Positions 22,190-27,321 of a stretch of DNA of 64,000 nucleotides are shown here, one piece after another. Both the position numbers and the translations under genes were made by a program. Origin of the DNA: Collinsella sp. BA40 (GTDB lineage: Bacteria; Actinomycetota; Coriobacteriia; Coriobacteriales; Coriobacteriaceae); contig NZ_VOWY01000011.1 of NCBI RefSeq assembly GCF_008014645.1, forward strand, positions 62,293 to 126,292, given 5' to 3'. The notes beneath the pieces are model-generated. The model ran no database searches, was not told the DNA's origin, and saw only the letters and a list, made by a program, of their open reading frames with translations. How positions within the stretch are numbered: position 1 is the first letter of the stretch; each line of letters opens with the position of its first letter.

Positions 22190-23722
<1,533 letters not shown>

Positions 23723-23923
23723 GGCGGATCCAACCGCCCGCCCGCCGGCGATGTCCGCGGAGGCGTTCCGTTGCGCGCGGCGCAGATCGCGACCGACGGG
23801 CACGGGGCGGCGTGCGTCCGTTCGTCGTGTGCTAACATACCGCTCGCCGTGAAATACCTACCGTTTACGGTGTGATATACCGAGCGATTGCGGGCCCTGT
23901 TCTACCATCCATGGCTGCAGCAA

Positions 23924-23951
23924 GGTTGTTACTCCTCGGGAGGCATCACTT
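23924..23951 (+). promoter_or_regulatory. RAT-like ribonucleic antiterminator site for LicT
   Basis: The string GGTTGTTACT at 23924-23933, a short CCTCGGG loop region and AGGCATCACTT at 23941-23951 reproduce the layout of LicT/SacY RAT elements (GGATTGTTACT ... AGGCAAAACCT). It sits directly upstream of licT and overlaps the 5' arm of the terminator at 23931-24016, so the two structures are mutually exclusive. Confidence 0.82.
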
Positions 23952-24016
23952 GCGCACCAAGATGCGGGGGCCTGGTGGCTCCGGTTCGTGCGCAGCGATG
24001 TTCCGAGGAGTTTTTT
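23931..24016 (+). terminator. LicT-controlled terminator that also sequesters the licT ribosome-binding site
   Basis: ACTCCTCGG at 23931-23939 is perfectly complementary to CCGAGGAGT at 24003-24011, directly followed by five more T bases. Inner pairings GCATC/GATG(T) and GCGCAC/GTGCGC lengthen the hairpin. The 3' arm contains the GAGGAG Shine-Dalgarno of licT (ATG 24018). Confidence 0.8.
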
Positions 24017-24017
24017 C

Positions 24018-24845
24018 ATGCTCATCCTGAAGAAAATCAACAACAACGTGGCCCTGGCGTCCGATGGCGCCGGCGAGGAGATTGTTGTCTTCGGCAAGGG
24101 CGTCGGGTTTCCCCGCATGCCGTATGAGCTCGAGGACGAGTCGGTGGTCGAGCGCGTGTTCGCGCACGTGGACGAGGAGTATCGGGCGGTTCTGCAGTCG
24201 GTGTCCGACGACGTCTTGCTGGCGGCGTCCGATATCGCCGCCATGGCCGCCGAATCCCTCGATTGCGCGCTTTCGGGCAACCTTGCATTCACCCTGGCAG
24301 ACCACTTGCAGTACGCCATCGAGCGAACCGCCGACGGTATCGTGTTCGAGAATCCCCTGGCGAACGAGGTCCGCTTCGTGTACCCCCGCGAGGTCGAGCT
24401 CGGCGCCCGCGGCATCGAGATCGTGCGCGGGCGCACGGGGGCGGAGCTCCCTGGCTGCGAGGCCGTCTCGATCGCGCTGCATCTGGTGAACGCCGAGCTC
24501 GACGGCATGGGGTCCGTGCAGGATATGGACGTCGTCATGAAGAGCACCGCGGCGATCGAGCGCGCCACGCAGATCATCGAGCGCCGTTTCGGCATCGAGC
24601 TCGATCGCACATCCTATGCATACGTGCGCTTCGTCGCGCACATGCGCTTCCTCATGCGCCGCCTCATGCAGGGCGGCGGCAAGCAGACGCAGAACTCCAG
24701 CCTGTTCCGGCGCGCCTCCCGGGAATTTCCCGAGGCATACGCATGCGCGCGCGATATCGACGAGCACCTGTGCTCCGCCTACGGCTGGAATTGCTCCGAT
24801 GAGGAGCTCCTCTACCTCATGATGCACGTCAACCGCCTGCGCTAG
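24018..24845 (+). CDS. licT: BglG/LicT-family transcription antiterminator
   Basis: A 275-aa RNA-binding antiterminator. The N-terminal CAT domain begins LILKKINNNVALA and is followed by two PTS regulation domains. The four regulatory histidines are recognisable: TLADHLQYAIE and SIALHLVNAEL in PRD1, FVAHMRFLMRR and LLYLMMHVNRL in PRD2. EIIB phosphorylates PRD1 to inactivate the protein and HPr phosphorylates PRD2 to activate it in the B. subtilis paradigm. A RAT site overlapping a terminator lies immediately upstream, so the protein is predicted to control its own operon. ATG at 24018 has GAGGAG seven bases upstream. Confidence 0.94.
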   Translation: MLILKKINNNVALASDGAGEEIVVFGKGVGFPRMPYELEDESVVERVFAHVDEEYRAVLQSVSDDVLLAASDIAAMAAESLDCALSGNLAFTLADHLQYAIERTADGIVFENPLANEVRFVYPREVELGARGIEIVRGRTGAELPGCEAVSIALHLVNAELDGMGSVQDMDVVMKSTAAIERATQIIERRFGIELDRTSYAYVRFVAHMRFLMRRLMQGGGKQTQNSSLFRRASREFPEAYACARDIDEHLCSAYGWNCSDEELLYLMMHVNRLR

Positions 24846-24956: not shown

Positions 24957-26408
24957 ATGGCAGGAACGTACGATGACCTCGCACGCGTCATCCTTGAAAA
25001 CGTGGGCGGCAGCGCCAACGTGGACAGCATCGGCCACTGCATCACCCGTCTTCGCTTCAAGCTCAAAGATGAGGCGAAGGCGAACGACGAGGTGCTCGAG
25101 GCGACCGACGGCGTGGTGAAGATCATGCACGCCGGCGGCCAGTACCAGGTCGTCATCGGGCCGCACGTGAACGAGGTCTACGATGCCGTGGTCGCGGCGG
25201 GCGATTTGAACGCCGGCGGCTCGGTGGACGAGGACGCGCCCGCCAAGAAGCAGACCTTTATGAACGTCGCCATCGACCTCATCTCGGGCATCCTCCAGCC
25301 CGTCCTGCCCGTGCTCGCCGCGGGCGGCATGACCAAGGGTTTGCTGAGCCTCGCCGCTTTCCTGGGTTGGATCAGCAAGGACTCCGGAACCTACACCGTG
25401 ATCTGCTCCTTTGCCGACGGTATCTTCTACTTCCTGCCGATCTTCTTGGGCCTTACCGCCGCTCGCAAGTTCAAGATCAACGAGTTCGTGGGCGCGGCCA
25501 TCGGCGCCGCGCTGTGCTTCCCGGCCATGGTGAACATCGGCGCCACCGCCGAAGCGCTGGGCTCCGTGCTCGCGGGCACGCCGTTCGAGATGAGCTACTA
25601 CGCAACGTTCCTGGGGCTGCCCGTGATCATGCCGCAGTCCGGCTACACCTCGAGCGTCATCCCCGTCGTCCTGGCCGTGTGGTTCGCCTCGGTTCTCTAT
25701 AAGAAGCTCGAGTCCGCTACGCCGTCCGCCATCCGATTCTTCGTGGTGCCCATGGCGACGCTGCTCGTGACCGTGCCCATGACCTACCTCGCGATCGGTC
25801 CCGTGGCCTCGATCGTCACCAACGGCTTGTCGCTGCTGCTCCAGAGCATCTACGAGATCCCCATGGTCGGCGGCCTGCTGTGCGGCGCGTTCCTGGGTGG
25901 CGTCTACCAGGTCATGGTCATCTTCGGCCTGCACTGGGCATGTGTTCCCATCGTCCTTACCAACCTTTCCGTCCTGGGCTTCGACGCCGTGCTGTCCGGT
26001 CGCGAGGTGTGCACCTTCGCCCAGACCGCCGCGACGTTCGCGATCTTCCTGAAGACCCGCGATTCCAAGCTCAAGCAGATCGCGCTGCCCGCTGCCATCA
26101 CCGGCTTCTTCGGTACGACCGAGCCCTGCATCTACGGCGTGACCCTGCCCAAGAAGAAGCCGTTCATCATCAGCTGCATCGCTTCGGCTATCGGCGGCGG
26201 CTTCGTGGGCCTGATGGGCGTCAAGAAGTTCACCTCCGGGTTCTCCGGCATCCTGGGCCTGCCGATCTTCGTCGATCCCTCGGGTGCCGAGGGCGTCACC
26301 AACGTGATCTGGCTCGTGGTGGGCATCCTTATCGCCATGGCCATCTCGTTCGTGGGCACCTGGCTGACCTACCGCGATGAGGATAAGCAGGCGGCTGCTG
26401 CTCGATAG
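24957..26408 (+). CDS. PTS beta-glucoside-type EIIBC permease
   Basis: A 483-aa fusion of an N-terminal EIIB domain, with phospho-cysteine C28 in SIGHCITRLRFKL, and a polytopic EIIC. The EIIC segment FFGTTEPCIYGVTLPKKKPF matches the conserved GITEPAIYG element of the glucose-glucoside superfamily. BglF/BglP proteins usually carry a C-terminal EIIA domain and reach about 610-630 aa; here the chain stops before it and EIIA is encoded by the next gene. ATG has AAGGAA upstream. It lies 111 bases after licT in the same direction. Confidence 0.93.
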   Translation: MAGTYDDLARVILENVGGSANVDSIGHCITRLRFKLKDEAKANDEVLEATDGVVKIMHAGGQYQVVIGPHVNEVYDAVVAAGDLNAGGSVDEDAPAKKQTFMNVAIDLISGILQPVLPVLAAGGMTKGLLSLAAFLGWISKDSGTYTVICSFADGIFYFLPIFLGLTAARKFKINEFVGAAIGAALCFPAMVNIGATAEALGSVLAGTPFEMSYYATFLGLPVIMPQSGYTSSVIPVVLAVWFASVLYKKLESATPSAIRFFVVPMATLLVTVPMTYLAIGPVASIVTNGLSLLLQSIYEIPMVGGLLCGAFLGGVYQVMVIFGLHWACVPIVLTNLSVLGFDAVLSGREVCTFAQTAATFAIFLKTRDSKLKQIALPAAITGFFGTTEPCIYGVTLPKKKPFIISCIASAIGGGFVGLMGVKKFTSGFSGILGLPIFVDPSGAEGVTNVIWLVVGILIAMAISFVGTWLTYRDEDKQAAAAR

Positions 26409-26486
26409 GAGGCCTGCCGTTCGGTTGCGGTTCGCGGGAGAGCCCGCCGTGCAGGAAAAACGGTTCATATGATTGGGGAATGTGCC

Positions 26487-27041
26487 ATGGGTTTGTTCGA
26501 TGTGTTCAAGAAGAAGGACGCGCCGTCGAAGCGCGAGGAATCTCGGGTCGCCATCGAGGCGCCCGCGACGATCGAGGTCCAGGCGGGGGCGGGCATCGTG
26601 TGCGCTCCGGTGACCGGAACGCTCATCGCGATGTCCGAGGTGCCCGACCCGGTGTTTTCCAGCGAGGTGCTGGGTCGCGGCTGCGCCGTCTGGCCCGCGT
26701 CCGATGTGGTACGCGCGCCCGTTTCCGGCGAGGTCACGGTCACCATGGGCCACGCGGCCGGCATCAAGTCGGACGACGGCATCGAGGTGCTCGTGCACGT
26801 GGGCATCGATACGGTGAATCTCGAAGGCAAGGGGTTCACGGGGTATGTGGCCGCTGGGGACCGCGTGGTGGCGGGCCAGCCGCTGCTGGCGATGGACCGC
26901 GCGGCGATCGCCGCGGCGGGGTATAAGGACTGCGTCATCGTTGCCGTATCGAACTCCGCCGCCTTCTCGTCGGTCGAGCTCGCGGCCGATGCGAACGCCG
27001 AGATTCAGGCTGGCGCCGCCGCGCTGCGGGTCACGCGCTAG
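26487..27041 (+). CDS. PTS EIIA, glucose/beta-glucoside type
   Basis: A 184-aa phosphocarrier that passes phosphate from HPr to EIIB. It contains the two histidines of the fold: GHAAGIKSDDG, and the phosphorylated H104 in LVHVGIDTVNLEGKGF. The N-terminal MGLFDVFKKK resembles Crr starts. ATG at 26487 has GGGGA upstream; the in-frame ATG at 26469 is a possible alternative start adding six residues. It follows EIIBC, which lacks its own EIIA, so the pair rebuilds the EIIBCA set. Confidence 0.92.
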   Translation: MGLFDVFKKKDAPSKREESRVAIEAPATIEVQAGAGIVCAPVTGTLIAMSEVPDPVFSSEVLGRGCAVWPASDVVRAPVSGEVTVTMGHAAGIKSDDGIEVLVHVGIDTVNLEGKGFTGYVAAGDRVVAGQPLLAMDRAAIAAAGYKDCVIVAVSNSAAFSSVELAADANAEIQAGAAALRVTR

Positions 27042-27063: not shown

Positions 27064-27321
27064 ATGCAGACGTTTGTCTATGAAATCACCGATCCCGCGG
27101 GCTTGCATGCCCGGCCTGCCACGAGCATCGCCGCCGAGGCGAGCAGATGGCCGTGCGAGATCATCGTAGCCCTCGACCGCACGCGGGATCGCGTCTCGGC
27201 GTGCGACCTCATGGGGCTTATGGGGCTCGATGCGCGCCAGGGCGACCGCCTGCAGGTGAGCGCGGACGGCTCGCGCGCCTCCGAGGCGCTGGCATCGCTG
27301 CTGCCGGTGTTCGATTTCTAG
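27064..27321 (+). CDS. HPr-like phosphocarrier with Asp at the regulatory serine position
   Basis: An 85-aa HPr protein with the active-site H15 in AGLHARPAT. In typical Gram-positive HPr the second motif reads KSIMGVMSL with Ser46 the target of HPr kinase. Here it reads ACDLMGLMGL, placing D48 at that position (two extra residues precede it). The aspartate could mimic phosphoserine or simply make the protein insensitive to HPr kinase. AAAGGA precedes the ATG at 27064. Being last in the licT-EIIBC-EIIA cluster, it appears dedicated to this PTS; Enzyme I is not in the window. Confidence 0.9.
   Translation: MQTFVYEITDPAGLHARPATSIAAEASRWPCEIIVALDRTRDRVSACDLMGLMGLDARQGDRLQVSADGSRASEALASLLPVFDF

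Follow-up and report, generated by a model that had tools for sequence, protein, structure and literature searches.

The leader of a licT gene in Collinsella raises the question of whether an antiterminator protein of the BglG/SacY/LicT family may govern the translation of its own mRNA as well as its transcription. Overlap between a ribonucleic antiterminator (RAT) and a terminator is canonical for this family (PMC12502629, PMC1489936), and the existence of RATs without terminators has led to proposals that these proteins have further functions (PMC12502629). In the leader described here the terminator is also fused to the ribosome-binding site (RBS) of licT, which is unusual for the family. 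An earlier note on this DNA had proposed that LicT both permits read-through and exposes its own RBS, a double gate with positive feedback. We analysed a 64 kb stretch of DNA (the window) within a 1.93 Mb Collinsella genome, together with related leaders. We assign a probability of about 0.68 to the reading that the licT leader exerts dual control, such that LicT allows read-through and also keeps its own Shine-Dalgarno sequence (SD) free, resulting in positive autoregulation.

Architecture of the licT leader

On inspection of the sequence, the 295 bases 5' of licT contain a -10-like element, a RAT and a terminator hairpin. The individual features are as follows.

23903..23908, + strand: TACCAT, a putative -10-like element from sequence inspection
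23920..23953, + strand: RAT, with lower stem GCAAG/CTTGC, middle stem UUG/CAU and upper stem CTCC/GGAG
23931..23939, + strand: shared strand ACTCCTCGG, which provides the 5' side of the RAT upper stem, the 5' arm of the terminator and the anti-SD
23932-23935, + strand: CTCC within ACTCCTCGG, the 5' side of the RAT upper stem
23931..24011, + strand: terminator hairpin with a branched interior; its basal helix joins 23931-23939 with 24003-24011
24003-24011, + strand: terminator 3' arm CCGAGGAGT, which holds the licT SD
24006..24010, + strand: licT SD AGGAG, inside the terminator 3' arm and 7 nt 5' of the ATG
24011..24016, + strand: terminator T tract, doubling as the spacer between SD and start codon; T 24011 is also the last base of the 3' arm
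24017, + strand: C, followed by the licT ATG at 24018-24020, so that the T run ends one base from the start codon

These coordinates confirm that, as the earlier note had stated, ACTCCTCGG is both a segment of the RAT and the 5' arm of a hairpin with CCGAGGAGT, that the SD of licT (AGGAG, 24006-24010) lies within the 3' arm of this hairpin, and that only one base, C 24017, separates the T run of the terminator from the ATG. The RAT-like element itself is present, but is longer than had been described, and extends from 23920 to 23953 when the lower stem GCAAG/CTTGC is counted. From the sequence, transcription is expected to start near 23915, a few bases 5' of the RAT, and the spacing between RAT and promoter resembles that of S. 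mutans bglP (PMC1489936). A GTG at 23988 was rejected as the start codon of licT, as it is located inside the hairpin and relatives start at the ATG that follows the T run.

The RAT possesses the core GTTAC-N-AGGCA and a two-loop stem, in which the U-A pair of the middle stem is U-U in the licT clade. The RAT pattern matches only once in the 64 kb window, even when up to three mismatches are allowed (0.04 expected). No match was found at the locus with Rfam at gathering or relaxed thresholds, riboswitch families included, nor was a metabolite-binding aptamer found; the control element is a RAT, not a riboswitch. The hairpin was missed by a simple terminator scanner because the loop that the scanner allows (3-8 nt) is too short for a branched hairpin.

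LicT and its operon

The genes surrounding the leader are as follows.

22283..23722, + strand: GH1 6-phospho-beta-glucosidase-like gene, upstream, which gives the substrate context
24018..24845, + strand: licT, encoding a BglG/SacY-type antiterminator with a CAT RNA-binding domain and two PRDs
24957..26408, + strand: PTS EIIBC of the beta-glucoside type, following licT in the presumed operon
26469..27041, + strand: PTS EIIA (glucose family)
27064..27321, + strand: HPr-like protein

The reading frame of licT is intact in the window. Its product exceeds the Pfam cut-offs for both CAT_RBD (50.8 bits) and PRD (97.6 bits, in two stretches) and aligns with solved LicT structures, among them the RNA-binding domain entry 1l1c. 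With the NCBIfam LicT equivalog the protein scores 223.8 bits, below the cut-off of 300 although best among the listed models, and 'licT' is therefore used here as a type name. Histidines 96, 155, 208 and 270 occupy all four PRD phosphorylation-site positions. The first three are invariant in an alignment of nine sequences, while position 270 is histidine in the window and tyrosine in some relatives. Based on these histidines and on knowledge of the family, LicT is expected to be controlled through PTS phosphorylation.

The genome contains one PRD-domain gene and one convincing RAT; three other matches to the pattern are loose and do not carry the ACTC...GAGGCA core. The most likely consequence is that LicT regulates no operon besides its own. 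Moreover, because the single RAT fronts licT itself, control of its own gene would constitute positive feedback, and the feedback proposed in the earlier note fits this pairing of a single antiterminator with a single RAT.

The HPr-like protein (27064-27321) retains the His15 motif (LHARPAT) and, when aligned by eye, has Asp at the canonical Ser46 position (SACDLMGLMG). It may be a naturally occurring counterpart of HPr S46D that serves a single sugar operon, and would merit attention.

Predicted alternative structures

CTCC (23932-23935) is predicted to pair with either of two GGAG segments, one in the RAT (23939-23942) and the other the SD within the hairpin (24007-24010). The leader has a folding energy of -55.1 kcal/mol, compared to -38.2 ± 3.7 kcal/mol in dinucleotide shuffles (z = -4.6, 0/200). 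Sequence, folding and conservation (see below) together point to a probable intrinsic terminator that overlaps the RAT and is mutually exclusive with it.

The mean probability that the SD is unpaired in the free ensemble is predicted to be 0.00 in the window; among the 21 leaders of the licT clade, it does not exceed 0.10 in 19. Forcing the RAT raises the predicted value to 0.50 in the window and to 0.22-0.64 across those 19 leaders. In L072 and L096, where the hairpin occurs in a shifted register, SD openness is predicted to change from 0.19-0.20 in the hairpin state to 0.27-0.35 with the RAT forced. Folding with and without a forced RAT had been suggested in the earlier note as a check. The SD is predicted to be closed when the RNA is free, and to reach only about half openness with a forced RAT.

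In the finished RNA, the hairpin is predicted to be more stable than the RAT state by 18.4 kcal/mol in the window, and by about 5-20 kcal/mol across the leaders. Because the hairpin is favoured by 18 kcal/mol, LicT would have to catch the RAT during transcription, before the 3' arm is made. We infer that the leader is a kinetic switch, in which LicT holds a kinetically trapped RAT state. Lasting exposure of the SD would likewise need kinetic trapping or quick ribosome loading. Since the AUG is still unmade while the polymerase is in the T run, ribosomes cannot affect the first gate, and the second gate, at the SD, is relevant to read-through RNA.

Termination is settled while the AUG is still to be synthesised, which would also be compatible with transcription attenuation only. 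In that case a terminator would have been moved beside licT, its GGAG would double as the SD by coincidence, and ribosomes would load regardless after read-through. However, the same helix would hide the SD in read-through RNA (probability unpaired about 0) unless it were held open. We consider attenuation alone rather unlikely, and return to it below with the leaders of other genes.

Conservation and covariation in relatives

Using LicT as query against 45 genomes of the genus, 400 genomes sampled from the class, and a collection of named genomes (matches listed), we recovered at least 21 distinct licT-clade leaders from Coriobacteriaceae and Atopobiaceae. Identity to the LicT of the window extends down to about 50% among the aligned members of this set. 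In all 21 leaders the RAT, the ACTC... strand, a GGAG-like SD with T run, and the start codon follow one another in that order, and the terminator arm with the SD is situated 6-8 nt before the start codon. The T run is likewise kept in every one (nearly always 5-7 T), and it ends zero or one base from the start codon across the fused relatives. Conservation of both arms in relatives, which the earlier note had named as a test of its proposal, is thus seen throughout the 21 leaders.

Base pairs were counted on anchored arms; a MAFFT alignment of whole leaders displaced the 3' arm in some rows. In the 17 leaders that could be anchored on GAGT, the six outer pairs of the basal helix are formed in 102 of 102 cells, a count that rests on related sequences. 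Pair 6 is T-A, T-G or C-G, and the inner pairs drift. When arms were swapped between species, pairing was as good in 12 of 5000 trials, a figure that relatedness may inflate. The lower stem of the RAT exhibits compensatory changes (GCAAG/CTTGC, GCAAA/TTTGC, GCACG/CGTGC and GCGC/GCGC). Given the pairing of the basal helix and the covariation in the RAT stem, both alternative structures therefore look selected. The invariant outer pairs of the GAGT leaders could, on the other hand, be fixed by the conserved SD and RAT stem for other reasons.

The only exception within the clade is L077, a second copy in C. vaginalis, in which the T run is lost, the RAT has decayed, and the SD is near the RAT-like element. 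The persistence of an SD at this position without a T run is what might be expected from translational control only, with a hairpin that hides the SD and a T run that is an unstructured spacer rather than part of a working terminator. The interior of the hairpin is not a compact stem but long and branched, which points in the same direction. However, this explanation does not account for the T run of 5-7 residues in nearly all of the 21 leaders, nor for spaced relatives in which the arm and T run are far from start codons and are sensible only as a terminator. The GGAG-T5 string GGAGTTTTT-N(0-4)-ATG occurs once in the 1.93 Mb genome, in the licT leader, and elsewhere in the genus such strings have a frequency similar to that of a reversed control pattern. 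We therefore regard translational control alone as improbable. The other loci of the genus with such strings, when inspected, led for the most part to a phosphoglycerate-dehydrogenase-like gene or to non-genes rather than to RATs.

A further explanation is that a RAT-like string overlaps an RBS by chance, or that the element is a relic without function; in its favour, licT is frame-shifted in two related assemblies (L054 and L075). It is contradicted by conservation, as the stems co-vary and the layout is maintained across two families. In addition, the RAT pattern has an expectation of just 0.04 in the window, where the licT frame is intact, and we give this explanation very little credence. 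The two frameshifts, in C. stercoris DSM 13279 (L054) and C. tanakaei ET10 (L075), are located near codons 82-87 and go in opposite directions, and both leaders are intact despite them; they represent either independent decay or assembly errors. In C. aerofaciens D31t1 (L003/L053), ATT replaces ATG at the start of licT, and the SD and T run are unchanged.

RAT leaders of other genes

Outside the licT clade, we examined 15 RAT leaders from Gemmiger, Faecalibacterium, Isobaculum, Vagococcus and Collinsella paralogues. In these, about 18-167 nt lie between the end of the T run and the start codon (in some leaders the start is a few bases 5' of the position from which this was counted), and the RBS is separate. 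A class-wide scan for a RAT followed by a terminator yielded 24 sites in 400 genomes, versus one for the reversed control. Both arrangements can occur in one genome: in the Atopobiaceae genome G394 the two licT leaders are fused, whereas two RAT leaders of an EIIA gene are spaced by ~50 nt. In a tree of LicT proteins, which has long branches, the fused leaders group on one side with L077 nested among them, and the fused or spaced label changes twice, compared to 13.9 times with shuffled labels. Judging from these sequences, the fused layout is specific to licT among the RAT leaders examined.

A GGAGT-T(n) arm is already present in spaced relatives from Bacillota and Collinsella. The simplest history is therefore that the start codon moved next to an existing terminator, whose arm was presumably able to serve as an SD once the start codon adjoined it. 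Given this arm in spaced relatives, the fused form could also have arisen simply because the leader became shorter, as attenuation alone would have it, and overlap between RAT and terminator is canonical in the family (PMC12502629). Shortening does not predict, however, that the fused form would be kept over two families and only at licT among the RAT genes examined. The double gate of the earlier note gains partial support from this distribution, as its architecture is both conserved in the 21 leaders and, among the RAT leaders examined, particular to licT.

The leaders of paralogues or targets in Collinsella and Atopobiaceae (L018, L035, L144, L145 and, for EIIA, L151/L153) share with licT a RAT with an ACTC-type strand and a GAGT-T(n) arm, but differ in having a separate RBS downstream. 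These are expected to control transcription only. As fusion is seen at the regulator gene only, and ordinary RAT leaders exist in the same genome, the two forms provide a natural comparison of the effect of the second gate.

Several other arrangements were observed. Another Collinsella antiterminator gene is preceded by two tandem RATs 46 nt apart (L019-L022, L040 and L041). In Atopobiaceae, two RAT-terminator leaders (L140 and L141) precede genes that are lipoprotein-like with a twin-arginine-like signal (SRRSFVG...AGCG) rather than PTS genes, and L141 also has an in-frame ATG directly after the T run.

A proposed dual-gate mechanism

In the mechanism that we infer, which comprises termination, LicT binding, control of the SD and an effect on induction, the ACTCC(TCGG) strand would leave the RAT stem when active LicT is absent and pair with CCGAGGAGT. 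The closed hairpin would cause RNA polymerase to terminate in the T run just 5' of the start codon, and any transcripts that slip past the T run would have their SD locked in the same helix. Active LicT, which would be the substrate-induced, dephosphorylated form, would hold the RAT as soon as it is made. CTCC would then stay with the RAT's own GGAG, so that the hairpin could not close and transcription would go on, while the licT SD would remain available for ribosomes. LicT would thereby allow its gene to be both transcribed and translated, and positive feedback would operate in two steps, at the gene of the regulator only.

Several characterized systems, namely B. subtilis LicT/SacY, E. coli BglG, S. 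mutans LicT-bglP and E. faecalis NagY, share with the window a protein with CAT and PRD domains, a GTTAC...AGGCA RAT core, a terminator mutually exclusive with the RAT and a beta-glucoside PTS operon. They differ in that the 3' arm of the window's terminator is the SD, whereas outside the window's clade the RBS is separate. A parallel for this feature is the riboswitch class termed 'dual transcription and translation attenuation', where the RBS is in the 3' side of the terminator (Barrick and Breaker 2007, PMC2258182). By the definition given there (PMC2258182), the licT leader has the corresponding features, a terminator with a U tail and an RBS in its 3' side. Both arrangements have a terminator adjoining the gene, with termination acting first and RBS hiding second. 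In contrast to those riboswitches (PMC2258182), the sensor in the window would be a protein-bound RAT, not a metabolite aptamer, the leader would be ON with the active protein, and the controlled protein would be the sensor itself. We found no description of an RBS-hiding RAT or of Collinsella antiterminators in the accessible literature, which covers few subscription journals and is thus weak evidence of absence.

If true, dual control would add translation to the reach of a textbook transcription antiterminator, and a single RNA strand would serve successively as stem of the antiterminator, arm of the terminator and block on the SD. Possible gains from a second gate in an autoregulatory loop include lower leak and a sharper threshold or bistability. 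We would give even odds to the wider proposal that in Coriobacteriales a BglG-type protein activates its own gene at the levels of transcription and translation alike, that the RAT stem bears a GGAG copy of the SD with which the genuine SD must compete for a single anti-SD strand, that the double gate is reserved to the regulator gene while target operons are ordinary, and that beta-glucoside induction is consequently sharp and possibly switch-like.

Upstream motif and a second leader

An additional recurrent element is located further upstream.

23860..23868, + strand: ACCGTTTAC motif, upstream of the promoter; recurs in Coriobacteriaceae licT upstream regions

On either strand, the 9-mer ACCGTTYRC has 16 matches in 4 kb of licT upstream sequence versus three in 192 kb elsewhere, or 4.0 per kb versus 0.016 per kb; the motif was read off the same regions, and the enrichment is partly circular. 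It is found about 147-191 nt upstream of licT in L002, L004, L007-L009, L051-L054, L066, L075, L076 and L092, and L054 and L009 each have two copies exactly 21 nt apart. The ACCGTTTAC/ACCGTTYRC motif is probably the operator of a DNA-binding regulator.

A second conserved leader is ~100 nt long, contains a CCCGC...GCGGG hairpin and leads into a gene that begins with MRKIKTIDDITKDGKVEFGEGYEFV across Collinsella species (L111-L113, L116, L118, L119, L123, L124, L127, L129, L133, L134 and L136). By eye the gene is phosphoglycerate-dehydrogenase-like, and its start region reads GGAGTTTTT(C)ATG.
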